64,000 bases of DNA from Ephemerocybe angulata (lineage: Eukaryota > Basidiomycota > Agaricomycetes > Agaricales > Psathyrellaceae): NCBI GenBank assembly GCA_013368325.1, contig JAACJK010000006.1, positions 124,001 to 188,000 on the forward strand. The letters run 5' to 3'. Under the pieces are notes generated by a model. It saw nothing but the letters and a program-made list of their open reading frames with translations, was not told where the DNA came from and did not search any database. Shown piece by piece: positions 27,954-61,500 of the stretch (the first letter of the stretch is position 1; every line of letters starts with the position of its first letter). Position numbers and translations under genes: made by a program.

Positions 27954-28382
27954 GTGGCGGGGAGAGGGACTCGATATAAGTGAATAGATATATACCCATT
28001 CTTCTTCTTGTATGGACTGGATTGTCTAGATGGCAAATACACACTCATTTCAACCTTCAATAAGTGGCTGGGTCAGCCTCCTGGGCATCACCACTGGATG
28101 GGTAATCTGAAGGGACGCTCAAGAGTTGAATATTTGATCCCCAGGCCCTCAGTACTCAGGGCCAAGTCATCGACCAAAAAGGATACCAAGCACGTCTACT
28201 CGAGTGGCAGGAGTGAGCGAGCTGCGACAGGCGGTTGAAGGGGCTCAATGATCGTTTGGGGGCTGTTTCAAGTTTGATGTGGGGAGCACTACGGGCGCTT
28301 AACTCCTCACGCGCATATGGAACGGCGCTTGTGTAATGTAGTCAGGGATCTTGTTCGGGGGTCGTAGCAGGAGTAGATACAG
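27954..28382. other. Intergenic region left of element B
   Basis: No supported gene. It ends with AGATACAG (28375-28382), the left copy of the element B target duplication. Confidence 0.55.
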
Positions 28383-30360
28383 CCGGTGCTGTCAGAGTTG
28401 TGCACCAATCGCGATGATCAATGCAACCCTTGTGGTGCATAAATCCCTTTACCCATCCTGGCAGCTGCGGCTCGCCCTTTAATGCATTACCCCAGAAAGC
28501 ACCCCACCATGCAATGCATTACTCCCTGGAGGTCCCCAGTGCTTCTTATCCCGCCTGCCCTCTGTCAGCTTAATCCCGCCCCCCCGCCTCAATGCCCTTT
28601 CTCGATTATGATGGAATCTGAGATCTGAAGGAAGGCAGCTCCCCGATATGAATCACCCATATCTGGCGGCCAGGCTGATCGTGCCTGCATCGCTTGCATG
28701 GTCAGTTCTCATCGGGGGACATCATCGTAATGCATTATTCGTCGAGAATTGACCTAGCGGGCTCAATTTTCGTGCTTGCGATTTACGCCATTACAGCGTT
28801 GCTCCTCAGGCAGCGACATAAAATTCACGACCATGACAATGGCGAGCATTCGTTGTTAAGTCAGGATCCCTCTCACTGATACGTACTCCGACGCTTTCTA
28901 CCTTTAGTAGATGATTCCGGTCCTCAGTGCCCCTATAATACATCATGAACATTGGCCATAATTAGACCGCGGGATATAATTAGACCGCCATGGCTATCGC
29001 CACCGTAATGCATCGTGAACATTGCCTATAATTAGATTGAACAGCCCTGGCTATTCCCTGCTATTGCACAGTATAATGCATCACAATTGGCGCGCCCTAT
29101 TCCCCCACTACATAATTTCTCAACCGGCTGGTACCGGGACTCAGTGATGCACCAGACTTTCATCGTCCTGTTGGGTGCCTTCGACTCAGTGATGCACCAT
29201 CTTTTCCTCAGCCTCTTCCTGGTTCCGGGCTCAGTGATGCGTCACAATTTTCTCAACCTGTTCATAACCCCTCTCGACATGCCCCACTGTAATGCACCAC
29301 AGATTCACAGCCGGCTGGTGCCGGGGTCAGTGATGCATCACGATGTCTTCAGCCTGTTTGGTCCACTAATCGCTCACGGTAGGTGGCAGATTATTGATGC
29401 ACTAGAAACTAACCCGGACCGATACCGCCCTCCCCCCTCCTTTGTGTGTACAATGCATTAATATCATATCCCTTCCTCCACCTTCCCTCCGCCCCTTCCC
29501 CCCTTTGTTTTTATGATGCATTACCTTCCATCCTCCCACCCTCCGCCCTTCTAATACATCCCTCCCCTTCTCCCGCTATGCAGCAAATCTCGTCCACTTC
29601 CAGTCTTGTCACCCAATGTTCCCTAGGCCCCGGTCTTAGCGCCCAAGCTTACGTGTGCGGCAAGAAACACGAGCGCTCACGTAATATACCCATGCGGTGG
29701 AACTGTTAGGCGCCATGCTTTGTCATTGACAGGTTGATACATTACCATTCACCTCTACCAGCACCATTATCGGGCATGCTCCAGAACCTCCACTTCTGAT
29801 GCATCAACAGTCCCTTGCGCTCCGAGCTTTGCAATCCATAAGAATCTAATAATATTTACCTTGCCCTGACCATCACGTTTAGAAAGCCAATGTATTCCGG
29901 CATTTGGGCGCCTAATGAGGATGGGGGTTCTTCCCCCTCTTTCCCGCTCTCTCAAGAATGCAAGGATGGCCGACGAGAAAAGTGGCCAATGTAGGTCAAG
30001 TAATCTCCTTGATTCACCCGCAGATCCTATACCACCATGAGTCTAAAATGAAGGGCTCCAAGAATAGGCGTATCGTGTATCTCTTTGGGCCCTCATTTTG
30101 ATGCTACTTGTAATGCATCGCTTGACTTTGTCGTAGGAGGATGTTTAGAGGCGCTATTGAAGAAAGCAATGCATTGCGATGCATTGCCAGGCTCTAATGC
30201 ATTGTCAGGCTCTAATGCATCGCTGGACTCGTGTCGTAGAAGGAGCACCGATGTTCTGTGACCACGGTGGAGGAGGTGATATTGCTACCCTAATGCATCC
30301 ACGCCATCCGACGAGCCACTCCTACACGTTTGTTGCATCGTGATGCATCTCTAATTCGCC
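28383..30360. repeat. Element B left subterminal ATGCAT array
   Basis: About two dozen ATGCAT or one-off variants (often TAATGCATTA or TGATGCATCA) are spread over 2 kb, for example at 28730-28735, and as a tight group near 30168-30225. No coding region is supported here. ATGCAT is its own complement, so sites have no orientation. Confidence 0.75.
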
Positions 30361-30568
30361 TTGATCCTCTACTCTCCAGTACCAAGAAGTGGGGGTTTAT
30401 TGACCGTGCGCTACTCAAGAATAACATAGGTAATGGTAGTGCTCGGTAGTGACAATAGGTCCACCCTAAAGAAGGCGGTCAGGTCAAGATCGGGTCAAGA
30501 TCGGGTCAAGATAACAATTCGAACTAGGGTCGAGCCCTACAAACATATATCAGTTGAAAGTCGTCAGA

Positions 30569-33500
30569 TCAGTGAGCTCGTACATACCTCTTTTGGGTGG
30601 TCCTCGTGGGCTGGGTTTCGCATCGACGTTTGACGCCCCGGTTCTTAAGGTTCGGCGCCACGACACTCAGCTCATCGAAAGTGCGGCTGACATCCAAAAC
30701 TAAAGCCCTCCAACTATCTCTCGAGTCGTCCCTGTAGCACGTCGGACCTCCCGCCGCTGCCCGACCCCACCAGAGTATCAAAACCAAGAGCGAAATAAGT
30801 CCGTTTGGACCGGATTTACAGAGCGGGGCCCATGCACTCATGTCGACATTCGGATCGGGGCCAGCATAGACGGGCAGAGGAAGGACTTCGCCGGGGTTGA
30901 GACGGAATGCGGGCTGGCAACGACACCACCACTTTACGATCGCAATGCCTATCTCGGCTGGATCATCGATAAAGGGAGGGGCGACATGGTTCCGAGCGCC
31001 TTTTGACGACTTTGTAGTCCACTTACTCCATTCAGCGGGGCGATCTTGTACAGGGAGAGAACCCTAAATAATAAAGAATCGTCATCAGTTCGACTTGGGG
31101 AGAGGCAAGAAGGACGGCGCACCTTGAGTGACTTTCCAAACCCAAGCGAAGACTCCAATGCACACCACTTATCCACCAGCCCCAGCCACTCGATGCCAAG
31201 TTCAGCGTTTCTGAGATCAGCGACAGCATTAGCAAACCACTCCGGTTCCTTATCGGCGTCCTGCTCGTCCCCAACGGGACATGGCCTCGACGTCTGGGGT
31301 ATGTTGCTCCCAATCAGTTGTTGCTTCTCTCGTTGAGTGGAAGGCTTTGCTGGCCGCGCAGAACGCCTCCGACTTGTATCTTCTTCAGGCAAGGAAGCGG
31401 CATTTACGTCAGAAGTGGAGGTTGCTGGGGCCGGTTTTGCCGCTGATGATTTGGCGACGGGGGCGGGCTTCTCGACATGGGGGTTGGCGATGGGGGCCTT
31501 GATATGGGGGTTGGCGTTGGGGGTGGGCTTCTCGATTTGAACGTCAGCGCTGCGGGAGGGTGCCCCGATGGAGGGACTGGCAATGGGAGCGGGGTTCTTG
31601 ATAACAGCGTTGGCGACCGGGTTGGCGACCGGGTTGGCGACGGGGGCGGGCTCCTTGATATGGGGGTTGGCGTTGGGGGCGGGCTTCTCAATTTGAACAT
31701 CAGCATTGTGGGAGGGTGCCTCGACGTGGGGGCTGGCATTGAGAGCTAGCTGGGGTTTGGCAACGGGAGTTGGATTCACCCATTGTGTCTGAGTGAGAGG
31801 GATCACATCGGTACTACTGGTATGCGCCTCTCCGCGCGATGAGTGAGATCCTGAGGCCGATACCGAGGCAGAGAGATTGACACCTGGGGGTATGTTCTCG
31901 CGATTGGGGACGGTGATGTCGGCGTTGGTGGCGGGATTGAGACTAGATGTGAGACTGGTATCGGGGATGCTGTTGGTGATATCAAAAAGAACCTGACTCG
32001 TGGTGGTGACAGTAGTGCTACGCGTCAAAGGGGATGATCTATTGACAGAGGAGTTGGCGGGTATCCCAACCTTGGGAACCGAATTGGCGTCAGAGGCACC
32101 GCGGTTTACCGAAGCACTTTGATCGGGGAGCTCATGCAGATTGACAGAAGAAAATATTTTGGGCGCAGGGAACGAGGTGTCGACGGACTTCGAAGCAGTA
32201 TCCAAAGCACATTGATGACGGTTGACCGTAGACTGTTCTGGAATGAGTCAGCGTTCTGAGTTAGTAGGGTAATATAACGCACGTTTTTAGTCCGTACAGA
32301 TGGTTCTTTTGCCTTAGCCCTCTCGTCCCAAAGCTTCAGAGCGGCATCCAGCGCTGACCCCGGCCGATAGCTCGGGTTTACGCCCTCAGGTTCCGACTCC
32401 CTCTCCTGCCCAAGTGCAGACATATCGAACTCTGGTTCTGTGTCAAAGTCGTTCACGGGAGGGAGAAGATGGTTATGTGATGGAAGGCGATCATTTCTGT
32501 AGCTAGAATCCTGCGATGTCAAATCCCCTGCAGTACCGGCGAACATGGGATCATCCTTCCAGTTAGCGGTCATGTTCCCCATGCTCACGTCCCACGTAGC
32601 TAGATGAATGCTTAATCAGACTGGTAAGGCGAACGGGTGATATGCACTCACCAGTCTGAGAAGGAGGGATCTGAATCGAAACACCTGCCTGATGAAGATT
32701 GATGTCGCACCACGATGCGGCGGAACCATTCGAAGGCGCGGTATGGTCCGGAAAGGGAAAAAGATTGGACATCGGGCAAGGAAAGTCGCCGCCGTTGTCA
32801 ATGGCTTGATTGGGGAAGGCGGATGAAGACGAAGACAGGGCGGATGAAGACGAAGACAGAGACTGAGATGCGAAGCTATTTTGGGCTCCTACGGTAGATG
32901 AATTGGAGTCACCGCGATTCGGGAAGGCGGACCTCAGCAAGCCAATTTCAGCCCCAGAGCCATTTATGGCGGTAGAGCCAGCATTGGGATGGTTCGCGAA
33001 GGCAGGCGAAGCCGAATCGCCGTGTTCGACTCCTGCACCTTGACTGGTCTCGATGGTTTTGGGTAGGTTCGGAAGGGTAGATAGAAGGTTGGAGGAATTC
33101 GATTGAGGGTGAGGAATCGATTTGGGGGTGTTGGTCTCCGTGGACGTCGTGGAGGCCGTGGGGGCAGGGACTGGTGGGTTCATGGACGGTATCGAGTTCG
33201 GGGAAGCTTCCTTAGTGGCGGATAGTCCTGTCAGGATATCTATCAGAATAATACTACTTCCTAGTGATCATAGGACGCACCTTGTGACCCAGAAGCCCTT
33301 ACATCTTTGTTGAGAGCTCGTTGGGCGCAAAGCTCTGGCGCTGAAAGACAGAAGTCAGAGAGATACGGTGGAAATGGGAAAATGGCGCGTACGAAACTCA
33401 TGGCGCTTAGCAAACTGAGAAAGCGCTGTGACAAAAACACGCTCATATTCGTTCCAAGTAGCGGCGAACAAGGGTGTCTTGTCCTTGTCACCGAACTGCA

Positions 33501-34395
33501 GCCTGAGGTTTGAGATCAGTCCTGACTCCTGATACAGCGATGTCCCAATTTGGGATGCTCACGTGTGGACTTTGATTTGGCCATCAGACGCCGGTTCGGG
33601 ACCCACAATCGTCACTACTGCGAGAACACCTGCCTTGCGGACAGCCGGATCTACAACAGCGGAGAGAACACTGGGAAGCGAGGTGAGGAACCTAGGTCGA
33701 GGTGAGTTAGAACTGGGTCTATCGTTGGAAGGATTTTGCAAAACATACCGATGATAAGTCTCTGGTTCCCCATCTTCACCCTCCTCTTCCTCCTCTGCGT
33801 CGTCCGCAATCCGTTCCTCAACGGCTTGTATCTCTTCTTCGGTAGCGTTATTATACAGTTCCTTACATACGCCGTGCCATCTCGAGACCTTTTTTGCCTT
33901 CTCTATTCCATCCTTCTCACAGCGTTCTTCCAAGGCAGCTGACACTTTCTCTGGGTAGAGCTTGGCGAAAGCCTCGTACGCCTTCAGTCCCCGTGTTCGA
34001 GGCGCGTAGATTTCCTTCAGAAGCTTGGGCGAGACCGATACGGTGTTGTTCCTGCTCCTAGGGTTGAACTGCCATCGAAACCACTCCTTCAACCGCTACA
34101 TTCAGGTGGAGTCTGGAGATTAGTATCCGGTGATGGGACGAAGAGGAACTAGTGAGACCACCTTCTGTAGCTTCCCGAGGGCGATTGAGTACTGCCCCAT
34201 TTGTTCGTCGTTGAGATCTCCTAGCTTTAACCCTGGGAACGTATCCTCGACAAGTGGGAACATCGTGAGGTAGCCGGCGAAGAGCTTAAGCCAAAATTGC
34301 TTGTACCTCTTCTTGACCCGGCATTCAGAGTATTCGGGGAGGAAGGACTCGCAGTAGGTTCGTCGTATTTCTGAAAGCCAGCTTTGAGGCGCCAT
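30569..34395 (-). CDS. Large cargo protein of element B, 1125 aa, 9 exons
   Basis: Exons: 34395-34162, 34095-33749, 33691-33563, 33502-33393, 33340-33281, 33227-32652, 32599-32283, 32232-31123 and 31063-30569; every join keeps frame. The N-terminal third is ordered (WLSEIRRTYC, LKEWFRWQFNPRS, WHGVCKELYN, an acidic run, then TWNEYERVFVTAF-type text). A long Ser/Asn/Pro-rich middle contains imperfect ANPHI-KPAP repeats. A conserved-looking C-terminal domain follows (EWLGLVDKWCALESSLGFG, RPAEWSKWT, IVKWWCRCQPAFR, GPNGLISLLVLILWWG) and a basic tail. I recall similar EW-W/GPNG/WWG proteins as common uncharacterised mushroom proteins, but cannot name the family. The start could lie upstream at 34473. 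Confidence 0.75.
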
Positions 34396-34467
34396 ATTGA
34401 CCTGACCAGGGGACGAGATAGGATCCTGATAGGGCGTCTGAAAAGAGTGGAGAGCTGTGAAACTCCA

Positions 34468-34510
34468 ATGCATCGAAATGCATTATAAATCTAGCTATTT
34501 TCTAATGCAT
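34468..34510. promoter_or_regulatory. Three ATGCAT sites in a divergent cargo promoter
   Basis: ATGCAT occurs at 34468-34473, 34478-34483 and 34505-34510, between the divergent starts at 34395 (minus) and 34756 (plus). This is the motif that fills the element ends. A protein that binds the ends could therefore also control these two genes; that is an inference. Confidence 0.55.
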
Positions 34511-34677
34511 TGTCTTTTTCGGAAGCTCCAAATCTGTCTCTGGAGGCTCTCCATAGCCTTATTTGGGTACTTTCGATCACAAGTTCAACCTGGTCCCGGC
34601 CTTCTCGAGTGTCCACAGATTCGTACTTGTTTGTACAAATTGCCAGACGTAAGTAGGGATCTGTTCCTATATAAACC

Positions 34678-34685
34678 CCCTGATA
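34678..34685 (+). promoter_or_regulatory. TATA box of viroplasmin-domain gene
   Basis: TATATAAA lies 71 bp before the ATG at 34756, with a C/T-rich stretch between. Confidence 0.55.
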
Positions 34686-34755
34686 CAGTGACTAACGCCA
34701 TTATCCCTTTTCCAACACTTTCTCTCTCCAGTCGATTATCAACATTTTTGATCTA

Positions 34756-35854
34756 ATGGTCAACCAAGCCAACACCAGCTCTGAGGGTGTCGCGACCATC
34801 AATCGCGTCGCTATCTCTCCAGCGCTGTTGAGGCTCCTTGGCTCTTTGATCCGTGCTATTGATGATCGTATGTTCTACCCTTATGTCTCCAGCACTGTGC
34901 AACCTCACCCTTGGACAATTAGGCCACCTCATCTTGGATTCTTTCGTCCGTCCTGGTGACGACGAACATGGTATGTGTTACGATTTGTTTCATGCCCGAT
35001 ATTCTGAGATAACCCGCTATTTAGAACTCAGCACTTGCGCTAGGTGCAGGGGAACCGGCATCGTCACTGCACCCATCAGCGTAAGCGATTTCGAGGATGA
35101 GGAGTTCGATCAAGTCTCCCCTCCCCCTAGCACTGGTATGTACTCTTCTTTATTAATCACAGTTACCTTCCATCATATATGCTGACAGATGATGCAGCCC
35201 CTTCTTCTGCTGCTCCTGCTCCCAGCGCTCCCGTGGCCGCTGTCGTGGCTGGAACCACTCACGCCGCCCCTGGTGCCACTCCCGCTGCTGCTGTGGTTGT
35301 TGGACCCTCTCCCGCCGCCGCTGGTCCCATTCCCGCCGCCGCCGCCACCGTTGTGGCTGGACCCAGCCCCATCGCCGCTACTTTGGTGGGGACCGCTCCT
35401 GCCGCCCCTCCCGCCGCGCCTGTGGGGATCGCTCCTGCCGCCCCTCCCGCCGCGCCTATCGAAGTTCCTGCGCCGATCGCACCGACTCCCGGCTTCCACT
35501 CCTTGGGTCCTAATGTTCCTCCCCCTGCACCCGAATCTGCGGTTTACGCCGGCAACGGCTGTATGTACCCTTTCACGGATAGAGTGCTACATTTGGTAAC
35601 TAACTCTCTCGTTTACTCACAGGCGAACGCTACTACACGGTTACCCGCGGAATTAGAGTTGGGGTCTTCGGCGACTGGTGGGTGTATCCCAACTTCCTGC
35701 CTTCTAGCAATTTTTCTGATGCCTAAATAGGATGAGTACCTCTCCTTTTGTCACCGGTGTCCCCGCTGCTAGCTTCACCCGGCACCGCTCTCTCATTGCT
35801 GCGTACGAGGCTTATGTCACAGCCCATGGTAGGGGTTTCGTTACGCATGCTTAG
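34756..35854 (+). CDS. Viroplasmin/RNase H1 N-domain protein, 283 aa, element B cargo
   Basis: Exons: 34756-34867, 34893-34970, 35025-35135, 35189-35560, 35623-35677 and 35731-35854. The C-terminus reads ERYYTVTRGIRVGVFGDW, then a Ser/Pro-Phe-Val-Thr-Gly stretch and ASFTRHRSLIAAYEAYV. This is the caulimovirus-viroplasmin/RNase H1 N-terminal fold (Y-x-V-x-x-G-x-x-x-G-[IV]-[FY]-x-x-W), known in RNase H1 to bind RNA:DNA hybrids. The middle is a long Ala/Pro/Val tract, probably disordered. A CARCRGTG motif sits near residue 70. No RNase H catalytic domain follows. It may bind nucleic acid during element activity. Confidence 0.75.
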
Positions 35855-37357
35855 ACGTCTACCTACCATCACCTCCCTCACCGCTCGCCGCTACTTACTT
35901 ACCCCTTCTTGCTCGAGGCGATGGTATCTCCCCTGCTCTCGTCTTCTGTCTCGTGTGTCGCATCGCTCGCTCTCTTTCGACTTAGTTCTCCCAACTTACT
36001 TGATACCCTGTAACGCAAAAAAATCTCTGTTAAGTTCTGAATCCCCGGACAATATATCTCCCGTTGTTTCTACGTAATATGCATGAGAGGAAGCAGAAGA
36101 AGTGCGCCCAAATCTGTAACTGAAGTCCCTAAGTCGTTCCCAAGAATCACGCTGAAGGCCAGTCAGTGCTCGTGGTATGGAGGTCTTTGGCCTCTGAAAT
36201 CCAGAGTTCTATATGAAGATATCTCAATAATTCGCTATGTGAGCAATAGGTATGTCAAAGGGACAGGCTGAGTAGACGCCGATACCACAATCCAGCCGCC
36301 GGCAGCATCGCGGCCAAGTGCACGTTCGGCAATTGCCGAATTGGACTTAGTCGAATTCAGGTGTGTCGCGAAACGACAAACAGTTGAAAGTGCAGGGCAA
36401 ATCTTGAATGCGACACAGATATCTACTTATACATAGTAACAGAAACCCTACCTCACGTCTGCTAGGATTAGAATGATTGTATATGCCTATATCTGCCTGG
36501 ATATTGACTGATTGGTACGCCTGCGGTGATCAGCAGCGTGAGGAGGTTGCTTTCGCATCGGACTCCATCCACGGCCTAGAAAAGGGTAATAGAGGGCTAG
36601 GTGGCTTAAATTTAAAGCTATGGGGCAGTATAAGCCTCGCGATATTTGTTATTAGCGCTTACCTGAGTGTACTCTTTATGTTTCTGGAATAAAACATAAA
36701 ACACTCCCAGACTGTTCTGAACAGAAGCTCTCCACCTCCCAAAGAGCTCAGCATGTATATTAAATGTCTCTCCGATGTTTGAGATACCTGGGTACCTCGG
36801 TAGTAGATAGATAAAAATGAGTTAGACGGAAATGTTGCAGACGCTTAAGAGTTTCACTGTAAGAACTCGCTGTGGAATGCCTACTTTCAAGACCACCACA
36901 AATAAATCATTGCTACTTATGTACATTGTAAGATCGGATTAGAGCATACGTGTTAGATATTCCTCCCGCACTCATATCCCTTATCGGTATACTCAGCCCT
37001 CAGAAATCGACACATCTATGTCGAGCTTTCAGTCACAGCAGTTCTATTCGCACTCCCATTGGCTAGATGATATCCCTGGAAGGGCGGAGAGATCACAGAT
37101 TGCACCCATATGTAGCTACTGATCGCCAAAGCAAGATCCAATCCACGATCCATCAAAGTTCTGACAACTTCCTTCCTTCACCGTACCCGCGCGCCACAAT
37201 GCCTAAGGGTGGGCTACAAGTAGTCGTGTTTCGCTGGCTTCGTTTCGCAGTCTCCAACCCAGAGCCCCCAAATATCAGCCAGCTGTGAGTACATGCGCGT
37301 TCAGGCCCGTAGCACCCCTCGCCAGCGACGACTGACTCGGTATCTTCTTCTCCAGCC
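35855..37357. other. Gene-poor spacer inside element B
   Basis: 1.5 kb with only short unsupported frames. I see no repeats of the end motif and no recognisable gene. Confidence 0.5.
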
Positions 37358-37852
37358 ATGCCAACTGTCCATACCGATTGGACCATTCCTCAAGAGTGCG
37401 ACCTGATCATTGGCGCGCTTGAATACATAGAAGTCCTCGTGGTCGACGGGGACCTAAAAGCCTTTTGGCTGCTCTACCTCACGCGCTGGTTCCTCAACTA
37501 TCCTCAGTATTTTCGCGCCTCCAGCACTCCGTCGTATCGCCATTGGGTTCTCCGGGACAAGGTCGCTGTATGTCCCCACCCTTACCTCCCGTTCTCCCAA
37601 ACTTGCTTCTTGATCACCTCACTGACTCACGGTTTATTCTAGTCGATTCGCTCCGCTATACGGCGCCTTGCCGGTCGATATAACTCCGGCGGAATCCGAC
37701 GTCCAGCTACCCTCGTTATGTACAACCGCACGGTCCGCAATCTGAAGTCAGACCTCGCGCTGAAGCTTGACACCCTGACCGACCTTGCCGCGTATACTGA
37801 CCGCGCCTTTCCCGTCTCCCTTCGTAGCTTGATCGATCTCTTGTATAGATAG
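37358..37852 (+). CDS. Unknown 139-aa cargo protein of element B
   Basis: Two equal exons (37358-37567, 37643-37852), donor gtatgt and acceptor ctag. The first half is acidic with aromatic helices (DLIIGALEYIEVLVVDGDLKA, WLLYLTRWFLNYPQYF). The second half is basic and helical (SIRSAIRRLAGRY, RTVRNLKSDLALKLDTL). No domain is recognised. It keeps a clean frame inside the transposon. Confidence 0.5.
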
Positions 37853-38499
37853 GCCAAATATATCCCGGCTATCGTGATGCGAGTCTCGAGTACCCCGTCC
37901 CATGCAGTCCCCTAGTTACACGAGCCGTTGGACTTGCTTCTGCCATGACGCACCTTGAGCTCAAGAAAATCTGCGCAGTAGATAGACAGAATAATATAAT
38001 TTATCTTAGGCGCGAGTGTATTGCGTACACACCGGTCTCCAGCTTCCCAACTGATTGTCCTTACGAAGCGTTAATTTAAATCGAGATCTCTGGCCTTCCG
38101 TGAGCCTAATCCGTGCTCCGCACGAATTAGGCGCTGGACTTGTGATCTCTTGGGTCAAGCACGAGAATCCCGCTCCACTGGCGGCTATTTGTGATACCCA
38201 TGCATTAAACAAGAAGGGCGATCTCAGGTATATTCTGATACATCACTATGACAGGACGAGGTCTCCGTACCGATTGATCTGAAAAATGGGCGCCTCAGAA
38301 GGTAGGAGCGGGTGTTCGAGTTGGGGCTTGACTCACGTCCTGTCTCTCCTTCTGTAAATCCTCGTATCCATCGAAACTGCTGCTAGGAATGACCAGAAGT
38401 TCTGCGAGAGCCCTGGGTCTGCATATATAGCGCACCAGGGTAGCCCAGTAACTCCAACATTCGCCTCACGAGCCCACCAAGTTTAACACCCCATCAACA

Positions 38500-39047
38500 A
38501 TGTCCATCCAAATTAAGCAGGTGAGTCCATGCTTCTCTCCACAGCCTTCCTCTCCCATCGGACGCTTATCTGACGGCCCGAACAGCACAGCGACAACCCC
38601 TACCCACCCTTCAACATGCAGAAGACGGCATACATGAAGCAGAAGGTCCCTGAGTATGCGCAAGCCATCTCTGAAGGGCGCGGGGAGGAATACATCGAGC
38701 CCTTCATCGATGGCTGGCTCAAGCGATGGAAGTTCGGTGGCGAGGGGGGAATGAAAAGGGTGGGATACGAAGAGAAGCTGATGGAGGAGAGAAAGGTACG
38801 AGCGCCCACCTGACTAAAGCGTGCTGACTTAGACCATGTTCCTTTCTAGAGGATCCGTTTTGAGATGACCAGGCGCGCGAACAAAATTCTCGACAAGAAG
38901 AGGCAGGAGGAACAGGTCAAAACGGCTATTGCTTTCTGCAACGCCTACAAGGAGTGGCTCACTTACCATGACTCCTTCACGTGTCTCATCCCCGCCTGTA
39001 GAATCTGCTCGCAGAAGGACGATATGTTCGGTAGTCGTTACATCTGA
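38500..39047 (+). CDS. Unknown 142-aa cargo protein of element B
   Basis: Three exons: 38500-38520 (only MSIQIKQ), 38586-38795 and 38850-39047. A TATATA sequence lies near 38424. The protein is highly charged and helical (MKQKVPEYAQAISEGRGEEY, FIDGWLKRWKFG, NKILDKKRQEEQVKTAIAF) and ends with CLIPACRICSQKDDMF, a Cys pattern that might hold a metal. It ends 18 bp before the convergent gene at 39066. No family is recognised. Confidence 0.55.
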
Positions 39048-39065
39048 TTCCGCCGGTCCCGGCTA

Positions 39066-39820
39066 TCATTGGTACTTGCCGAGTTTCCATGTGCGCTCCG
39101 TTAGTGTACGTAATAGAAAGTCTCGGCCCAACTTCAACTCTCTCAACTCCTCCGCCACATCCACCATCCTGCGCGCTGTCCACAACTGATTCTGAGTCAC
39201 AATTGCACCTATCGAAGATATCTCCGCCTCGTTGGACTGCGCCTGCTCAACTGTGATTTGCGTGAGGCGCCGAAAGCGTTCTTCAAGTGACCCATACTCA
39301 TTCCATATCTCTTCCCGCAGCGTGGCCTCAGAGAACCCCCGCAGTGCGGCAACGCGAGAACTCAGGGCGCTGCTATATCGGTGCGTCATATAGCCATGAA
39401 GGGCAGCTCCCACTTGCGGCCACGAGTCGGCGAAGCTCTCAAGGGAGGTGACTGATTCGGGGTATGGGGGCAGGCCGATCATCGCTTCGAAATCTTCTTC
39501 TTCAACTTCCACGGCATCGAGCACGAGGAGGTCGTCTCCCTCTGCAAATCGAACGAAGGTGGACCGGTAGGCTGGATCGGACAGTTCCGCTTCGGCTAGA
39601 TCCAGAACTTGTTGGGATGGGACAGGCGGCTTCTTTCTTTTGAGGTAAGCCCTCCTGTTCTGTTTGCTACGAGCTGCTGCTGAGCTAGAATGTGTCAATT
39701 GCCGCATACAGGGTCTGTCTAATAGAGAACCCACCTGGGATCTTGATTACGGATAGCACGTTGGTCTCGCTGGGCAGCAGCCTTCGCTTCCAAGGTGAAA
39801 TAGAGTGCACGTCGTCCCAT
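39066..39820 (-). CDS. Basic-N-terminus helical cargo protein, 234 aa
   Basis: Exons 39820-39735 and 39684-39066 (donor gtgggt, acceptor ctag). It begins MGRRALYFTLEAKAAAQRDQ and continues with ARSKQNRRAYLKRKK, an Arg/Lys-rich helix like a bZIP-type basic region. The MGRR-LY opening is familiar from many uncharacterised mushroom proteins. The rest is helical with coiled-coil character (SLEERFRRLTQITVEQAQ, ARRMVDVAEELRELKL). It may bind DNA, for example the element ends, but this is inference. It shares a divergent promoter with the transposase gene. Confidence 0.6.
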
Positions 39821-39855
39821 GGACTATGCTGGGCTGCTAGACACCAGACCTTTGG

Positions 39856-39893
39856 ATTTATAGCCTTGTACGTCGTACTGGCCTGCTATAAAT
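39856..39893. promoter_or_regulatory. Back-to-back TATA boxes of a divergent promoter
   Basis: TATAAAT on the minus strand (39862-39856) serves the gene starting at 39820. TATAAAT on the plus strand (39887-39893) serves the transposase at 39950. Only 24 bp separate them, so the basic protein and the transposase are probably expressed together. Confidence 0.5.
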
Positions 39894-39949
39894 TGGTTCA
39901 AGACGCGGGATCCAGATAGTGAGTCGATCCCTGACCAGCCCTTCCCAAC

Positions 39950-42900
39950 ATGTCCAAGCCAGCGAAGTCCAGGAAGCGGAAGATCAAGATCATGAGCTCC
40001 ACTCCCTTGGAAACGCTACGACCATCGGCTCCTTCGACCTCTGCTCAGAACATTGAGATAACTAACTTTAAGCGGCTTTCGACTGGCAACCTGAGGATTG
40101 TCTCGAATAAGATGCACACCCTCGACCTCGACGGCGTCGAAGAGGATCCGCCGCCGGTTGCTAAGATTCGGACAGCGGAAGAAATACTGAGCAGCTGGGA
40201 GGAGAATACGGAACTGAATGGCTGGGATAGAAGCTACTACGAGAGCTTCATTGATCAAGAAGAGACTCCCCCATCTGTTCAGGGTGCCGACGCACGGAAT
40301 CGACCCAAAGGGGAGGGAGTGGGTCATGTTTCTTCGATTGATGCCTACAGGATGCTGATATCCACACTACTTACTAGGATGCTGTCATTCACGAGTGGAC
40401 GAAACAGATTGATGAATACCTTCGGATTCTACTGACACTGGAAGGGCGAGGAAAGAACCCGCCCGAGGTGTGTACACGGTGTCCATTGGCCGAAGAGACT
40501 TTACGGTCAGTAGCGCAGTACCGATGCACCGTTTGTGACAACCTCGGGCTCCTGTGCGGCGAGTGCATGCGGGACTCCCATCAGCACCTCCCTTTACATC
40601 GTATTCAGGTGAGTAGCATGACTTTCCTCGTATACCAGCTACTAATTGTTCTCAGTCATGGAATGGCAATTTTTTTGTCAAGTCATCCTTGAAATCCTTA
40701 GGAGTTCGAATCCAGCTTGGCCACCCACCTGGGGAGATATGTCCATTACCGGACCGAACCTGGGGCGACGACTTCGTAATAATCGACTGCGACGCCGTCC
40801 ACCTTGTCGGGCTCGACTATTGTCGCTGCGGTGCCACGGCTAAGTCCCAAGTGGAACAACTCCTTGAAAGGCGGCTCTATCCGGCTACCATCGAGAATCC
40901 GAAGAGTGCCGCTACCTTCAGGGTTCTCGAAGTATTCGAGATTCTCCAATACGAGTCTAAAGTCTCACCGTTCGAGTTATGGAAGGCACTTTCGCGACTT
41001 ACCGACAACACAGGCTTGAGCCCTGCAAAGGTAATTCATTCATTGTTTCTATATACGAGGTTAGCAACTAATTTGGTCGTACAGGATCGATACCCAAGCT
41101 TCTTGAGGATGGTCCATGAATGGCGCCATCTGAAACTCCTGAAGCGGCATGCGCGCGGGCATGATCCTCTTCGCACATCCGCGCAGACAAATCTGGGTGA
41201 ATGTGCGCTTCTCTGTCCTGCATGTCCCCACCCGAACATCAATATGCCTGATGACTGGGAAAACGAGAGTCAGGCGTTGAGGTATGTTCCATTTGAAACT
41301 TCCTTGGGAAATATTCGAGATATATTACTTCTTCTAGGTATATTCATGCCTTGAACTTGGCGCTTGATGCGTGTTTCCGTCTACGACGGAAGGACGTCTC
41401 AAGCGAAGCAGCGGATCCTGGACTTAGCAGAGGATTCTCCTACTACGTGGAGAATCAGCAGTTCGAGAAATACCTCGAAGCGCATGCGGATGAAGTCGAA
41501 CCCAAAAGTGACTGCTCGCGGCACGACGCGGTCAATCTCGCAGACGTGACCCCTGGCCAGGGCTATGCTTCTTCCGGGGCAGCAACGGTGGAGTGTGCGC
41601 GGCACAACATGAAGCGCCCTTCCGCTGTGTGCGATTTACAAAAGGGGGAGAGGTATGTTTTCACGAATTGGGGACAGAAGCCGTGCTAATTTTATCTAGA
41701 TACTGCAACATGGATTATATCCTTCACTTTGGACTCATGATCTTCGGCCTCAGCCTGCTCAGGACGTTCATAATTTCATATGACATCGCCTGTCAATGGT
41801 CGAAGCACCTACTTGCCCGTTTATTGCTGATGGATGAGAAGCGGGAGTCACCGCTTCTCAAGGCGGATACTCAGATTCGGTTTGTTGTCCCCAAATTCCA
41901 CCTCCCAGCCCATGTTCCACCATGTCAAACGAAGTACGCGTTTATGTTCACCCCTGGGGGCGGCCTTGGAGATGGAGAAGCTCCCGAGCGTGGATGGGGG
42001 GATGCGAATCCACTGGCAACGAGTACGCGGGAGATGGGGCCGGGAACACGCCGTGATACATTAGATTACAACTTTGGCGACTACAATTGGCGCAAGATCG
42101 TAGATCTCGGTACGTCGTTCTAATTTTGCACGGGTGACTCTACACAAAGCTGACCGACTATATCAGGGAACTCGTTAGCGAAGAAGATGGACAACACCGT
42201 CTCCAAGGTAGCGGAGCACACAATTGCGCACCAAGAATTAGAAGCTACTCTAGATGAAGGGAAGCTGGCCTCATGGAAAGCAGCTGCTGAAGCCTGGGAG
42301 GAGGATCCCTCGAAGCCCAACCCCTTCGAATCACTGGTGATTGCGCCCAAGCAAGACGCTACTCGAAAGGCCCTTGCAGCTGTGGAGGCCATCGAAATCG
42401 CACGGGGGAAGGATTTTTCTCTCTGTCCTGATGTGTCTCCGAGCGTGTTGATATCCCGAGGAATGGACTTGGAAGCAGACCAGTACGTATCTGTCAGTCT
42501 ACCGGGATGCACGGCGTACTGACAATTTATCCATAGACGTGCTCTGAGGGCGGAAATGAAGCAAGTCTGGACTCATTCGCGTGACCGCGAACTCACACGA
42601 GTTCAACTTCGTTCCAACGCTTTGGTGAGGAAGATCGAAGCTTGGTATTCCATCCTCCAGCTCTATATCCCCGCCACTGTGACTCTACGACAGCAATCCA
42701 CGGGAACGACCAGTATCCGCCCGTATGACCTCCCTCTTTGGCTTCCTTCCCAGATCGGGAAGAAAGCTCCCGTCGACGGCCGACTGATAGAAATTGAATA
42801 CGAGCTCCGCAACGCTCAGGCTCAGGAAGCTTTGACTACCCTACGGCGCTTCCTTCAACGGCGTACCACTGTTTGGGACCTCAAGGATCGTCATCTGCGG

Positions 42901-43690
42901 GGCCAAGGGCCGAATACGAAGGCGCTTACACTTCTGGACAGTATTCAAGACCGCATCAAGACCGCACGGGATGAATATCGGCAAGCACGTACTGCCTTGC
43001 TCTCCCTTGCGATTCTCCTGGGGAAGCCCGGTGTTGACAAGATATTCTTGCCGTTGGAGGATAGCGACATTAGGTCCATGGCGCGCATCGAGTGGGATGA
43101 AGATAGTATCACGACAAACGAAACAAACAGAACGCTCTCTTGGATTTGGAGACACTCGGGAGCAGCATCTGATAATCGGACGGATTGGGAAGAAGAAAGT
43201 ACGTATTTACACATTGACGTTTCTGGGGGTATATGCTTAATTAATCTCCATAGCAATCAAGGTGGAGTGGGCTAAATCCCGAGCGCGTGCATGCAGGTAT
43301 AATGAAGAAATCAACATCGTCAAGGAGGAAATGAAACGCACTTCGCGTTTCATGTCTTGGAAGGAGAAGAAATGGGTCGAGCATGGTTCAGCAAAACAGG
43401 AACACGCGAAAGCCAATGGACTTCCGGATATCCCAGACGAATACGCGGAAGGCCTTCGTGCATACGCCCTGCGTCAGGCCGCCTTATGCAGCGGGCTCCG
43501 AAGGCGCTTTGAACACACGTGGGAGCCTGTTGATCGCTCAATTGAGGCAGCCAAGAACGAGATAGCTGACCCAAGCCTCTACTATGCGAGGAGAGATCGG
43601 GAGAGTGTTGCATCAGGGATTGAGCCTGTTGACTCTGCACAGGAGGTTCAAAATGGGCCGACCTCACCAGACGACATGGACCTGTCTTAG
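39950..43690 (+). CDS. KDZ transposase, CxC2 type, 1103 aa
   Basis: Exons: 39950-40318, 40378-40608, 40656-41030, 41085-41281, 41338-41652, 41700-42109, 42167-42482, 42537-43198 and 43254-43690. After a basic N-terminus comes the CxC2 cysteine cluster (CTRCP, RCTVCDNLGLLCGECMRDSH, about residues 155-195). The RNase-H-like core shows SYDIACQW (Asp about 523), KFHLPAHVPPC, GDGEAPERGWG (Asp about 586, Glu about 591) and STREMGPGTRRDTLD with FGDYNWRKI. These are the hallmarks of KDZ transposases and their catalytic acidic residues. Helical C-terminal extensions follow. The frame is fully intact over nine exons, so it may be functional. Confidence 0.9.
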
Positions 43691-43811
43691 GTTAGAATAG
43701 TGTGAATATAATGTATTACTGAAATTAGATGAAAGCCGAGAAGTGCGAGTACTTATATAACACCGCCGATGTCAACAGTTAAGCGCCCGTTGCCTCTTTG
43801 GGTGCTAGAAT

Positions 43812-44518
43812 TTATGAAGCATTACATGTTCGATATAACTTTACGGCACGTTCAGTTCGGACAAGAAGTCCGGGTGCCCTTAACCCTTGTCTCCTCGGCG
43901 GTTCCATTCGGTGTGGCTTCTTGCTCGCCGACCTTGACGTTCTTGCAGTGCTCGAGGCGGGGCGGATGGCTGCTGGGAGGGCGGGGCGGATGGATTGTGG
44001 GAGGGCTTGCGGGGGTTTAGCGGCGGTGCTTAGGTATGTTGGTGGTTGAAGGATCGGCAAGTCAAAGCTGCAGTGGAGGGCTGATCGAAGGGCTGGTGGG
44101 AGTGTGTCAGAAATGAAGTATCTAGAGAAATAAATTAACTTTGAGGAGAGCAGTGAACTTGGACATGCACTTACAACGCACGTTGAACATCCCCCCTAGT
44201 GATATCGGCCCCCTCCCAAGCCGGTGCGGTGTCGTCAATCTCGATGGTGTTCGGAAAAACCCAGCCACTTCGATCGTCCTCGCTGTCATCATCGTCACTT
44301 TCGTCGTCCTCCACACTACTATACTCGCCGCGCTCGTGCCTTGCTTCCCTCGCTTTTTGTTCCTTCTCCTCCCGCTTTTTACTTTCCTCGTCTTCCTCCC
44401 TCAACCACTTCCAGTAGGCCTCCGAGCTCGTCCATACCTTCACAGAGTTTCCCCAGCAGTCGTCAATTTCATAGTACCCTGGGTCTTGTCGCGCCGTCGA
44501 TTTGCGACGAGAAGGCAT
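43812..44518 (-). CDS. Unknown acidic/basic cargo protein, 217 aa
   Basis: Exons 44518-44175 and 44121-43812 (donor gtaagt, acceptor ctag). The N-terminal half is charged, with EAYWKWLREEDEESKKREEK and a run of Asp/Ser (SSVEDDESDDDD). The C-terminal half is Pro/Ala/Arg-rich with repeated SIRP/AIRPA text. It lies at the right end of element B, next to the ATGCAT array, and points toward the transposase. No known domain is seen. Confidence 0.5.
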
Positions 44519-44579
44519 GGAGGTTGAAGGAAGGGTTTCTAATAGGGTGATCTGGTCGCCTGCGTTGGTTAATCTGGTC

Positions 44580-45795
44580 TCTAATGCATTACGAGCTATT
44601 GGGTGAGCGCCAGCATATAATGCATCGAGAAAGCCTATGATGCATTAGACCTGGGAGGCGAGAGCGGAAATCATTAATCAGCGACTGGGGACCTGTAATG
44701 CAACAGTTCTCAAATGTTTGTATGAAAAGTAATACATTAAGCTTGCTAAATGTTTCGATTAATGCATTAAAGAGATGGAGAGCCGTTCGGGAAGGAGGGG
44801 GAAGCGAGCGGCGACTGCATGGCCCGTAATGCATCAGCCCTCAAGCCCGTGTACAATAATTAATGCATTAAACATCCCTGAGAGAGGGGGAAGCGAGCTC
44901 GGAGGCTCGGCGATCGCACGCATAGGTCTACCCAGTAATGCATCACTTCCACACCAAGGCTTGATGCATCAAGCCATGGGGTTGCTGTATACTTAATGCA
45001 TTGTGAGTGGAGATCGAAGAAGCTATTTTCAGGAGCGGCGACTGCATGGCCCGTAATGCATCAGCCCTCAAGCCCGTGTACAATAATTAATGCATTAAAC
45101 ATCCCTGAGAGAGGGGGAAGCGAGCTCGGAGGCTCGGCGATCGCACGCATAGGTCTACCCAGTAATGCATCACTTCCACACCAAGGCTTGATGCATCAAG
45201 CCATGGGGTTGCTGTATACTTAATGCATTGTGAGTGGAGATCGAAGAAGCTATTTTCAGCGCCTACGGAGGATAGAGGAGGTACGGAAAGCTGCTTATTA
45301 GGCATGGATGCGGACTTTCCTGGCCGATTTCCTATAATCCTTGAAGCGAATAACGGTTCCGTGCCTAAAACTCCCTGTAGCATGGAGAGCTGGGAACTGA
45401 AGAGGAATCTGTCAGGGGAAGGTCGCCAAAGCACGCCAGTGGGTACGCAAGCCCCTATCCCCCATATGAACGGTGATAGGAACACCAATCAGCTTCCTCT
45501 CTTGACCTGGCAGATCCTGTCAAAGCTAGAAGGAGGTAGGGAAGCACATCAAGAAGTCGTGGACGCCCTGCCCAAAATGGTGGGTCGAGGCGGGAGTGAT
45601 GGCGGCAGACGGGGAGCAAGCGCCAAACCTTCTGATGCATCGTTTTGAGGATGATGCTTCGAGCCCGTTTTGGTGGGCACGGGCACAGGTAAGGCTAATG
45701 CATGACGGAGGATAGCGTTGCGGGGACAACCATTATCGCTGTTAATGCACCTCGCGGCAGACATTGATGATCGACATATAATGCACAACTGGGGC
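44580..45795. repeat. Element B right subterminal ATGCAT array
   Basis: About twenty ATGCAT sites or close variants lie in 1.2 kb, many as TAATGCAT or TGATGCATCA, mirroring the left end. The terminal match to the left end lies at about 45760-45795. Confidence 0.75.
44806..45259. repeat. Perfect 227-bp tandem duplication
   Basis: 44806-45032 and 45033-45259 read identically by eye, each holding six ATGCAT sites. Identity implies a recent duplication. It raises the number of motif sites at this end. Confidence 0.9.
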
Positions 45796-46086
45796 AGATA
45801 CAGGTGGTAGATAGGGAACCCCTGTCACAGGGGGAATGTGTCCCCGCGGAGCTCGGGTTATATGAGTCCCAAGACAATGGAAGCAACCAAGGGCTACTAC
45901 CTGCGACTCCAATGACCACAATCCGAACAATACGGGCACGGAAGTAGGCAAATTAGTCGTCACTTTGTGAAGTTCGCTCCTCAAAGTTGGGAGTGCATCT
46001 ATTTGCATGTCAAAATTGGCGGGTAGATAAGACACATCCGAAGCTGGGATATCGTTGACATTCCAGCCTCAGGGATTTCAATCAGT

Positions 46087-47203
46087 ATGCCGACTACATA
46101 CACCTCCGCCGACCCGCCACAGAGCAGAACAGTGCCATATGTGCGCCTCGCCACAGAAAAGGACTATCCTCAACTCATCGCATTAGGAACGAGGGCCTTC
46201 GCCAAAGATCCGATGTTGTTATATGTGGGATCCGTCCAGCAGGTATGTTGAGGGCTCCTTTGATCTATGCGAACAAAGTCTTCTTAAAGATGAGCTCTTT
46301 CATGGCCCAGGTCCAAGGCCACACCCTAGCGCCCAGTGATGAAGGCTCGCTCCGCATATTCATGGAATTTGTTCTATACTCAACGCTATCGAAGCATGGA
46401 AGAATAACTGTCGCCGCTGTTCCTTCTGACCTTGGTAGATGTTGAAACTGGCGATCCCAGATAGAGACTACTCATTGATCCACTCCTTATAATTAGATAA
46501 TAATGAGATGGTCGCCTCAGCCACATATTGGCTTCCTCCGAGCAAACTTGTTGAGACTCGTCAGGCCACCAAGCCAAGAGATGGCGCCGCTTCCATGCTC
46601 GGAGCATGGGGGGTCGGTGGGACAGCTGTGGGTTAAAACTCTTCACAACCGCCAATACTCACTCGTACTGACTCAGTGGCTTTGATTTCAGCGTATGACT
46701 GAGGATTACCTGAAGAAAGTGCACAATATCATCGTCAACTCTTTCAAACGGCGCGGGTTCCAGGAAAGCGAAGTTGGCTCTAGTGCATGGTACCTCAACC
46801 TGGCGATGACCGACCCAGCGCTACAAGGGAGAGGCTTTCTGTCTATGCTTATGAGAGAACAATTTGCGCACGCACCTGGACAGACGTATATCCTCGAGAC
46901 GACGACTGAGAAAGCTAAGAACCAATATCTGCACTATGGCTTCGAAGTAAGTCGAGGTTCTACATTTTTACTCTCTCTAAAGACGTAAATTCGCCACGCT
47001 GACTTGATCTTTGTAGCTTCAGGAAACATTTTGCGCAGGTGAAGGCCAAATTGGAGTGGATGGTTTACCTGCCACTCATGAAAACGGTGCCGGTGGGGTC
47101 AAGGCCTACCCTATGATCAAGGCAAGTGCGAAGACAATCACGCCTTGCAAGGTTGTGCTGACGAGCAACTGTCTCTCTGCAGTGGGGTGATCATCCCGTG
47201 TGA
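46087..47203 (+). CDS. GNAT-family N-acetyltransferase, 263 aa, 6 exons
   Basis: Exons: 46087-46242, 46311-46434, 46497-46627, 46692-46946, 47017-47121 and 47183-47203. VRLATEKDYPQLIALGTRAF opens a GNAT fold. LAMTDPALQGRGFLSMLMRE (residues about 173-193) is motif A with the Q-x-x-G-x acetyl-CoA pyrophosphate loop (QGRGF). YILETTTEKAKNQYLHYGFE is motif B. The last intron uses a GC donor (gcaagt). The acceptor molecule, a protein or small amine, cannot be read from sequence. A tRNA-His follows 71 bp downstream. Confidence 0.75.
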
Positions 47204-47274
47204 CTCTTGCCCCCACCCAAGGCCCAGAAGTACCTCTGGGACCATGACGGCAAGGGAACCCTAGTCTTTTCAAG

Positions 47275-47360
47275 GTCCTTGTCGATTAGGGGTTAAATCA
47301 TCTCGTTGTGGTTCTCTAATCTACTCCGAGAAGCCGGAAGTTCGAATCCTCCCTGGGACA
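47275..47360 (+). tRNA. tRNA-His (GTG), 14-nt intron, copy 2
   Basis: Identical to copy 1 except for one intron base (TCTACT in place of TCTGCT). It has the same anticodon GTG, the same perfect anticodon stem TCTCG/CGAGA and the same acceptor T-T mismatch. TTTTT at 47361-47365 is the Pol III stop. Confidence 0.75.
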
Positions 47361-47365
47361 TTTTT

Positions 47366-47906
47366 GCATCATTTTGCTCGCCACTCTTTCTGAGTCTTTC
47401 AGAATTCATGATTCTGCGCTCAGCGGCCAGCCTGCTGCAAGCCTGCATGGCCATTGGCACATGCATTTAGAGCCTAGCGGGTATCGTGAGCCCTATGCAT
47501 CCCCCGAAGCTCAAAAATTCAATGTATCGCTATCGCAGAGGATAGCCGGCAATCGTTCATATTGCTGTAGATGCATCACCAGCTTCCAACAGCCTCGGAC
47601 TACATGACATGCATCTGTACTCTTACTCCCAAGTAACCCAGGAGAGGCACATTCATTGCAAAAAGACTGTTTGAATCGCGACGACCCGCCGACTGGGTCC
47701 TGTGCGACTACATACCTTCCAGCGGGCCTCTGTCTCTCAGATAGATGGCGAGAACTCCAATATTCAGATGAGAGCCTTACCGTTCCTGAGCTAGCCACCG
47801 CGTCAGCTTAGATCCGCCAGATCCACGAGAAGGAAGTGGAGCAAAAGAATAGTCTCTGGATTATATTATGGTATGTCTAGGAGGGAATAAAGCAAGAGGT
47901 GGGGCA
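47366..47906. other. Intergenic region
   Basis: Frames on both strands are short and have no recognisable domain. Confidence 0.5.
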
Positions 47907-49881
<1,975 letters not shown>

Positions 49882-58513: not shown

Positions 58514-61500
58514 CTAAGCGCTCAATGCATCGACCGGATCCCTGACTACACAATAGTCCACACCCCCTTCAAGCAGATCCTTGCAATCACCCCTTTGACG
58601 AAGCATTTCTATAAGCGTGATGATGTTTGACCTACTTTCTTCGTCGTTCTTAAAGGCGTCTTGCACTTGCTGCGCGTTCAGCAAGTACGCAAGGGCTTCC
58701 GGTCTGTTGTTTTGTCTTTGAGCGGTAGTAATGACTGCATTGCGGATGGTGGGAGGGTTCCACGATTGGTGTTTGAGGAGAATATCGAGAGCATGGAACT
58801 TCCCACAATACACCGCGTAGTCGAACGCTGTCATGCCATGTTGATCACAGAGGTGGAGGTTAAGGGAAGGGCAGCGAGTGAGGAGCTCGACCGATTGTGC
58901 ACCAAACTCCCCAACAGGCTCTTCGGAGAAGAAGCAGGTATACATGAGTGCACATCGTCCATCTCGGTCTTGAGCATTGATGAAGTCTGGGTTGTTTTCA
59001 TTCCCGGAAATGAGGTGCCTGACGGCCACCGGTGGTACATAATTTCGCTTGGGCCAAGTTGACTTGGTCAACTTGGGTCAACTTGGGTCAACTTGGCCCC
59101 GCCAAAACGAGACAAGTTGACTTGGACCAACTTGCAAGTTTGTGCACGTACAAGCGAAGGTCAAGTCAGTTTATTAATAATTGGTATTACTAACTTGCGC
59201 TTTTTTCAATGCATATCATGGTAATTAGAGCCCGAGTTTGTGTGGTAAGGGCCAGGACTACTCGAGGCGGTGATACTAGACGGTAATTAAGCTTCACGCC
59301 GTCTGTCGTTGGTATCCGACCCCTTCCTGAATCTTTTACCAAGTTGTGACCCAAGTTATAACCCCTAACTTGGGGAGCGCCAAGTCGTAGGCAGTACGTA
59401 TTACCTGATGTCAACCTGACGTAGGAGACGGGCTCAGCCTCAGAGTGGGGCCTTGCCGGTACTGATATACTCCGCCTGTTCTTTATTGGCTCCAATTCCG
59501 TCTCCACTGCTTTCTGGTGGTCAAGTAACCGTACAGCGCATACAGCGCCGTTTAATTGATATGACTGTTATTTATTTAATACCTGCTATGTAGAGCTCGT
59601 TAATGGGATTACTTTTTTCTAAATCGGTGAACCCGTTCACGCGCACGAAATGCAAACCACTCAAATGTGCCGAGACTTCCGCCTTATCCTGCTTCCAAAT
59701 TTGGTCTGGCGGAAGTCGGAACGGCGGTAAAGCGACACGGCACAAGCCCAGCATCGAGAAATTTTATTATATATTGTTTAGGGAAAGCCGAGGCCCCTCT
59801 TCGACCCTCAAGGTCCATGATTCAGATGAGACACAATCTCACTTATATTTCGAAGACCCATGTCTTCTCGTCTATGCTAACCCACCATTGAAAATATAGC
59901 GTTGCCTAACAGCAGAATAGTATTCCCCAGTATGCAATCTGCTCGACCCCCCTATAAATACTGTATTGTGAAAAAGCAATGCACATTGGAAATGATAGAA
60001 TAGCAATATAATAGATAAATAATCACAATGGTGCCACTGGACACATCTATTCTCCACCCTCAAATAGCCCCCAGCCGTATTCTCGAGGCCGGAATTTAGA
60101 TTAACAATTCAACTTGCCCCGCCGAACACCCAAGTTCGACCCAAGCGAAGTTGTCGGTCCGTGGGAGTCAAGTTGTCCAGCAACTTGCCCTAACTTGGTT
60201 CGAACTTGGGCTCATTTGGCGGGGGCAAGTTGACCCAAGTTGACCAAGTTAACTTGGTCCAAGCGAAATTATACACGGTCACGGCCACACGGTAGCTGGC
60301 CAGGAGCATCAACGGTGTCCGCTCGTCTTCGTACCGACAGGTACCATCTTTGAGGGAAACGTGGAATGTATGGGATTCTTGGTTCCTAGAATTCCTTAGC
60401 TCATAGACAGGTAAAGCCTCGTGTTCATTCCGCACCACGCGGACATGATCTGCGCGCTCCAGCAGAACCCTCAGAATACGATCTACACCGGAGTCCTGTC
60501 CTGCGAATCGTAACCGGCTGAAATCCATTTTTCTCGCTGTTACCCGACCATCGTACGCCACAATCCGCTCCAGGGTGGTTTTCCCTTCGTCATCTTCCTG
60601 TTGAAGTAATTTGTGACTGCCAGGGTCGCGAGATAAAAACCATCTGACCAGCACTTCGAGGAATGAGTCGCATGCCCGCATGAAAGGCGTTTCATTTCGC
60701 TTATTCTTGGTGTCGATCTTGAGGTTCGGAAATGAGGAAATAAGGAATCGAGGCACGCCGGAGTAGGGAAAGGAACATGCACGAGAGAAAAGAGTGTTTC
60801 CGCCTGAATCTGGAGTGTCAATGTCGAAATCAGGATGTGAGGTGAAAAGCTGCAGCAATCGCCCGGAATCGGTTGTGACGTCAAAGAAAGCTTCGACAGG
60901 GAAGCCGCCAAAGTGAAAGTAGATAAACAGGTTCATGATTGGGGAATCTCCTTCATGGTCTTCTGCGTTTATACCGACGATTTCCAAAGGATAGGCGCGC
61001 CATACGTCAGAGGGGGAAAGGCCCAATAGCCGTTGAGCAACCTCGCACGTTAGCCTATTGGTATGTAGCGGCGTCCGACCGGCTTCGTCACGCACGTGAA
61101 CCCCGCTGTAGCCCTTGAGAAGTGCATCGAGCGCAGCAATACGGCCAAATTGAGCTGCCACATGGAATGGGGTTTTGGTGCCATGCGTAGTGGAGTACAC
61201 CAAGGTTCCCGAGGATATGAGGTGGACAAGATCATAGGCCGCAGCGAGGTGTATACCGGCAGGAACCTCCTCAACATAGTGGTTGCCAACAGGACCGGTG
61301 AGGAAATAGGCGTTGTGCTTGGAGAGGAAGGAGTGGATATAGGGGTTTAAGGCCTGTCGGCCGTCGCAAATCATGGCGTGGTCTCCCCAGTTAAGTAGCG
61401 CATAACGCAAGAGAGGCAGACGGCCAGCTGGGTGCGTGTAAAGTTCGAATTGCCTTTCCCAATTTAACGCAGCTGCGAGCGTTGCCATGTGCTCATCCAT

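Follow-up and report, generated by a model that had tools for sequence, protein, structure and literature searches.

Does a large transposon of a mushroom genome own the genes that lie between its ends, or does it only carry them? DNA transposons usually have one or two genes, and the question arises at a locus of Ephemerocybe angulata where a KDZ transposase gene stands among six other spliced genes. The locus lies in a 64,000-nucleotide stretch of forward-strand DNA, called the window below, which is part of contig C11 (GenBank JAACJK010000006.1, positions 124,001 to 188,000) of an assembly of 58.67 Mb in 232 contigs. A sequence-only reading of the window had proposed that the six genes form a functional module that travels with the transposase. 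We compared the locus with its relatives in the same assembly, and we consider it probable that the window holds a complete, 17,427-bp DNA transposon of the KDZ group, Kyakuja-like, whose six accessory genes are an old set and serve the element.

Results

Borders, Termini, and Terminal Arrays

Comparison with 12 other right ends and three other left ends places the borders of the element at 28380 and 45806, and not at 28383 and 45795 as first read. The terminal features are as follows.

28373-28379: left target-site duplication, GTAGATA, from flank comparison
28380-45806, plus strand: whole element, 17,427 bp, 5'-CAG...GTG-3'
28380-30400: left ATGCAT-rich end, 16 sites against a mean of 1.5 in 200 simulations
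44500-45806: right ATGCAT-rich end, 16 sites against a mean of 0.9 in 200 simulations
44806-45259, plus strand: a 227-bp unit, present twice in tandem, in the ATGCAT-rich part of the right end; each unit aligns to the other unit in contigs C105 and C106
45807-45813: right target-site duplication, GTAGATA, from flank comparison

Beyond 45795, AGATACAGGTG is common to the window and the 12 other right ends, and it is directly after this sequence that they part. These 13 right ends represent 12 distinct flanks, contig C114 and the start of C11 having one flank in common and thus being one locus. Since all of the right ends read AGATACAGGTG and differ only beyond it, the AGATACAG at 45796 is element sequence; lying inside a terminus common to 13 right ends, it was ruled out as a target duplication. 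The left AGATACAG consists of the duplication (...TAGATA) and, after it, the first bases of the element, CAG. The same CAG precedes CCGGT at each of the three other left ends, and the copy on C107 matches the window from 28380 onward. The 8-bp duplication of AGATACAG previously read at both borders was therefore mistaken, and the true duplication is the 7-bp GTAGATA.

Duplications of 7 bp fit four insertions: GTAGATA in the window, CTACAAT at C105/C107 (found in the right flank of C105 and in the left flank of C107), GTCCTGC at C207, and GTCGGTC at C117. The length is exactly 7 bp at the window and at C105/C107, where the eighth base differs (A/G and C/G, respectively), so that the 8-bp duplication that is the hallmark of Zisupton and Dileera was not found at either insertion; at C207 and C117 adjoining bases match too, and at least 8 bp can be read. 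The left flank of the window element had one match in a search of this assembly, namely itself.

The termini of the element are 5'-CA..TG-3'. With the corrected borders the two ends pair in register, imperfectly: 20 of 45 positions match without gaps (shuffle P 0.002), and the local score of 45 exceeds the highest of 500 shuffles, 42. The earlier borders give 13 of 45. "Matching" is thus too strong a word for the inverted ends previously described. Within the left end, a 77-bp piece (29638-29714) recurs at 96-97% identity on C76, C74, C26, C25, C23, and C73, and 67 bases of it recur at 81% identity on C208, C157, C70, C69, and C68.

The dense ATGCAT arrays that had been noticed at both ends far exceed the simulated means. 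In the right ends of seven relatives (C105, C114, C190, C207, C112, and two on C16), the density of ATGCAT is 10.8-14.2 per kb over the terminal 1.2 kb of the element, and the motif is found zero to one time in up to 1.5 kb outside each, the arrays stopping at the border; the left end of C207 has five sites in 1.5 kb inside and one in 1.8 kb outside. The right flank of the window element is itself enriched (13 sites against 3.7 expected, the highest of 200 simulations being 11), and the motif is therefore not confined to this element. Four of the window's ATGCAT sites outside the element fall within 1 kb at 47000-48000, where a search for an inverted repeat found none. Sub-terminal repeats of other transposons serve as binding sites of an element protein, and by analogy the ATGCAT pattern would fit such a use.

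Seven Open Genes

Splice models were made with a simple script and then refined against relatives. In these models the window copy has an open frame for each of the seven genes, whose order and orientation are g1-, g2+, g3+, g4+, g5-, transposase+, g7-.

30524-34395, minus strand: g1, 1100-aa Asn/Pro-rich protein, 11 exons; the first 293 codons are conserved in C207
34396-34755: promoter region between the divergent g1 and g2, with ATGCAT at 34468, 34478, and 34505; two sites in the C207 relative
34756-35854, plus strand: g2, 270 aa; its C-terminus has the viroplasmin/RNase H1 N-terminal domain (Cauli_VI, 24.5 bits; cut-off 21)
37358-37852, plus strand: g3, 139 aa, without reliable family
38500-39047, plus strand: g4, 142 aa, without reliable family
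39066-39820, minus strand: g5, 228 aa, MGRR protein with a basic N-terminus; a homologue is predicted to be all-helical
39950-43690, plus strand: g6, 1103-aa KDZ transposase with CxC2 cysteine cluster, nine exons
43812-44518, minus strand: g7, 217 aa, acidic/basic, without family

The transposase scores 188.4 bits for KDZ (PF18758; cut-off 26.6) and 121.9 bits for CxC2 (cut-off 27), and it retains 202 of the 204 columns that are conserved across 90% or more of 45 relatives. The sequence-only reading had described it as an intact CxC2-type enzyme of 1103 aa, with six companion genes whose exons join in frame and a viroplasmin-domain protein among their products, and all of this agrees with the models. 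Its large Asn/Pro-rich protein exists as well, with a length of 1100 aa, or 1126 aa if an upstream start is taken, instead of 1125 aa. Among the accessory proteins g2 alone has a Pfam family above cut-off, the scan of g1 covering its first 290 residues, which gave no match. In the C207 copy, GT..AG is retained at the aligned place in 19 of 22 comparable introns; the exceptions are one g7 intron with GC..AG, and one g4 intron and the g5 intron, whose acceptors are misaligned in the projection.

Elsewhere in the genome, the only PF01693 matches of the search lie at C223:175314-175503, possibly a host RNase H gene. A minus-strand frame at 60193-61605 of the window has ankyrin repeats (Ank_2, 39.8 bits).

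Close and Diverged Copies

Three contigs, C105, C106, and C107, belong with the window copy to one sub-family, here called A, and differ from it by 46, 55, and 49 substitutions, respectively, over 15.5-17.1 kb; differences so few indicate that sub-family A moved recently. Among themselves the three contigs differ by 10-20 substitutions over the ranges that they share, and they have 35-38 differences from the window in common. The few mutual substitutions, the shared differences, and the single duplication in the outer flanks make it probable that a single insertion has been assembled as three pieces. Both g3 and g4 are intact in all three, and the second exon of g5 is open and 100% identical in all four copies. 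The transposase and g7 are intact in C105, where g1 and g2 are broken; all four of these genes are broken in C106; and C107 has a broken transposase, open g1 and g2 whose lengths have changed in frame, and no coverage of g7. Part of these frame breaks may be sequence errors.

Of the more distant relatives, C114 has g2 to g7 in order, the contig ending before g1. The transposase of C207 has stops and frame changes in the projection, and its g1 is cut at the place matching window position 33272, perhaps by a nested insertion. Matching ends lie 45-48 kb apart in two relatives (C207:175451-223202 and C117:2418758-2463662), spans that probably have nested insertions inside; between the ends on C117 there is a second KDZ (2433659) with its own g5 (2431388) and g1 (2425902), in opposite orientation.

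Recurrence of the Gene Set

The genome was searched with g5, g1 (first 290 residues), g3, g2, g4, and g7, and the matches were merged by hand into places, without counting a second exon or a second half of a place. The results were set against 104 listed KDZ places, an incomplete list for which 150 of 175 candidates were scored. Breaks in the assembly fall at these elements, and some loci are present in it more than once (C105, C106, and C107; C114 and the start of C11), so that the counts of places and copies overstate the number of independent insertions.

About 5% of random places would be expected to fall within 15 kb of a listed KDZ. The MGRR gene g5 was found at 40 places, 36 of which lie within that distance; in every one of the 36 it is upstream of the transposase and in 35 on the opposite strand, mostly 2.3-2.7 kb away. 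The other four are farther than 15 kb from any listed KDZ; two of them stand at the start of a contig (C115, C208) and two elsewhere (C11:248301, C104:51163). For g1, 32 of 37 places are near a listed KDZ by the same measure (31/32 upstream and on the opposite strand); for g2, 32 of 37 (32/32 upstream, same strand); and for g3, 17 of 18 (17/17 upstream, same strand). Judged by eye, the matches of g4 and g7 coincide with the loci of the closer relatives, apart from a few weak ones of g7 that lie elsewhere. Because the identity of g5 to the query drops to about 30-40% at many distant places, the association with KDZ must be old.

Five relatives of g5 were present in the protein collection, one from E. 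angulata, three from Coprinellus aureogranulatus, and one unnamed. In C. aureogranulatus the locus tag of a g5 relative, NMY22_g16005, directly precedes that of a KDZ transposase, NMY22_g16006, and both are on contigs of 9145 bp; this is the one case of adjacency in another species, the remaining g5 relatives having no transposase partner among the matches listed (the best 120 of 943 transposase relatives). The nearest transposase among those listed is D9611_012394, at 75% identity.

On these comparisons we regard it as strongly supported that the six accessory genes form a set co-inherited with the transposase within this genome. The proposal that the set travels with the enzyme thus holds well in E. 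angulata, where order, strand, and spacing recur and the coding sequences are constrained; in another species, among the matches listed, the one adjacency is that in Coprinellus. As for a "functional module," recurrence and dN/dS bear out that the set is selected and co-inherited, and any function of the module is putative.

Selection on the Seven Genes

The window copy was compared with the diverged C207 relative by the Nei-Gojobori method, with 95% bootstrap intervals, giving the following dN/dS values.

g1: 0.14 (0.08-0.21), first 293 codons only
g2: 0.38 (0.27-0.52)
g3: 0.15 (0.08-0.25)
g4: 0.26 (0.14-0.45)
g5: 0.25 (0.16-0.37)
transposase: 0.07 (0.06-0.09)
g7: 0.27 (0.15-0.48)

The upper limits are at most 0.52 for all seven genes. 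Since the C207 transposase is broken in the projection, the constraint reflects the history of the lineage and not the present state of that copy. Against C114 the values are 0.19 for g3, 0.16 for g4, 0.20 for g5, and 0.36 for g7, and the silent sites of the transposase are saturated.

Exclusivity with TET/JBP Genes

Of 30 TET/JBP matches in the genome, 25 are above cut-off, and 20 of these 25 places have a listed KDZ within 12 kb, always on the opposite strand; in 17 of the 20 the TET/JBP gene is 3.9-4.6 kb downstream. Among the 104 listed KDZ places, 36 have g5, 20 have TET/JBP, and none has both. The 25 TET/JBP places above cut-off are all more than 25 kb from any g5 place, and the window element has no TET/JBP match. 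In the elements with the module it is g7 that follows the transposase on the opposite strand, in a similar position.

Discussion

The element most likely represents a TET-less Kyakuja-like lineage whose accessory module would be of service to the element itself. With seven open frames and a close relative at a second site, the window copy is a good candidate for an active element, and it may be mobile at present.

Other origins for the six genes must be weighed. They could be host genes, picked up and carried without use to the element, an idea that draws some strength from the broken g1 and g2 of certain copies and from the fact that most of the six proteins have no known domain and a use to the element that is putative. 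We think this improbable: the same set keeps its order and strand even where g5 identity is as low as about 30%, the six genes have dN/dS values of 0.14-0.38, and nearly all of their places in the genome are beside KDZ, with no separate host copy seen. Alternatively, the genes may benefit the fungus, the element spreading along with them, as has been proposed for the large cargo elements of other fungi; coding constraint would also be compatible with this. The strict tie to the transposase, however, and the presence in one genome of many copies with the same small set of basic or acidic unknown proteins, where varied metabolic or resistance genes might be looked for, make this explanation, if anything, a shade less credible than useless passengers.

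Least plausible, to the point of being very improbable, is a composite, produced by an assembly error or by a nested second element to which the six genes belong. The assembly does repeat some loci, and nested insertions exist in relatives, but the content is collinear at many separate places, duplications flank four insertions, and no inner end pair was seen between the accessory genes and the transposase. An accessory set that belongs to the transposon and serves it is the reading that we carry forward.

How the set might serve the element can be outlined. The transposase would recognize the CA..TG ends, perhaps helped by the ATGCAT arrays, and would excise the element and reinsert it elsewhere. 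The accessory proteins are most likely DNA- or nucleoprotein-binding partners whose targets would be the arrays and the g1/g2 promoter, and they may keep the element expressed and mobile, filling the role that TET/JBP would fill in the other KDZ elements of the same genome. A role in array binding or against silencing is a proposal that we offer tentatively, with the odds rather against it. In a larger context, we speculate that the KDZ elements of this mushroom could be of two mutually exclusive kinds, one bearing the DNA demethylation enzyme TET/JBP and the other, in its place, a six-gene system, one or more of whose proteins would bind the ATGCAT arrays at the ends and in the g1/g2 promoter, either protecting the element from silencing or building a transposition complex; this, too, we hold to be possible but doubtful. 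If true, it would mean that one transposon superfamily has a second strategy for staying active, different in kind and coded mostly by proteins of no known family. The exclusivity raises a question that can be tested, namely what takes the place of demethylation.

Six accessory genes kept in fixed order under selection are unusual for a DNA transposon lineage. Their recognition also explains as transposon parts what would otherwise be orphan families of this genome: the MGRR proteins, the short viroplasmin-domain proteins, and the large Asn/Pro-rich protein.

Comparison with Known Systems

The titles and abstract openings surveyed name no conserved Kyakuja accessory genes other than TET/JBP; an earlier mention is possible, for example in the founding KDZ paper, reportedly that of Iyer et al. 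in 2014. Starships are large fungal elements with many genes, a tyrosine recombinase, and variable cargo; the window element is likewise a large multi-gene fungal element, but it has a KDZ transposase and a fixed set of genes. The VANDAL elements are a transposon group different from KDZ, and a likeness to them would be one of working. In Arabidopsis, VANDAL encodes an anti-silencing protein, VANC, whose targets are often tandem repeats, and the combination of an element-coded accessory protein with arrayed targets may have a parallel here, where binding would be putative (PMC5735166).

Nearer relatives are found among KDZ elements. KDZ1-KDZ3 of Cryptococcus neoformans, of about 9-11 kb, with TIRs of 139-241 bp and 4-8-bp duplications, are, like the window element, large DNA transposons with a KDZ transposase and a cysteine cluster, which is CxC1 there and CxC2 here; the portion of their description considered names no accessory set (PMC12810828). 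The KDZ elements of Pleurotus ostreatus include intact transposons with a CxC2 region ahead of KDZ, as in the window, and differ in that no accessory gene set was found in the consulted part of their description (PMC7641404).

The closest likeness is to Kyakuja, a KDZ lineage of Laccaria bicolor and other Agaricomycetes. In the part of the Kyakuja description used here, no mention of accessory genes of the present kind was found (PMC12730594). That part gives the lineage a 7-bp target-site duplication, CA..TG termini, and no TIRs, and the window element also has a 7-bp duplication, 5'-CA..TG-3' ends, which pair imperfectly, and a KDZ transposase; the families described there bear TET/JBP, whereas the lineage in the window, among the listed places, is without TET/JBP and has six other genes (PMC12730594).
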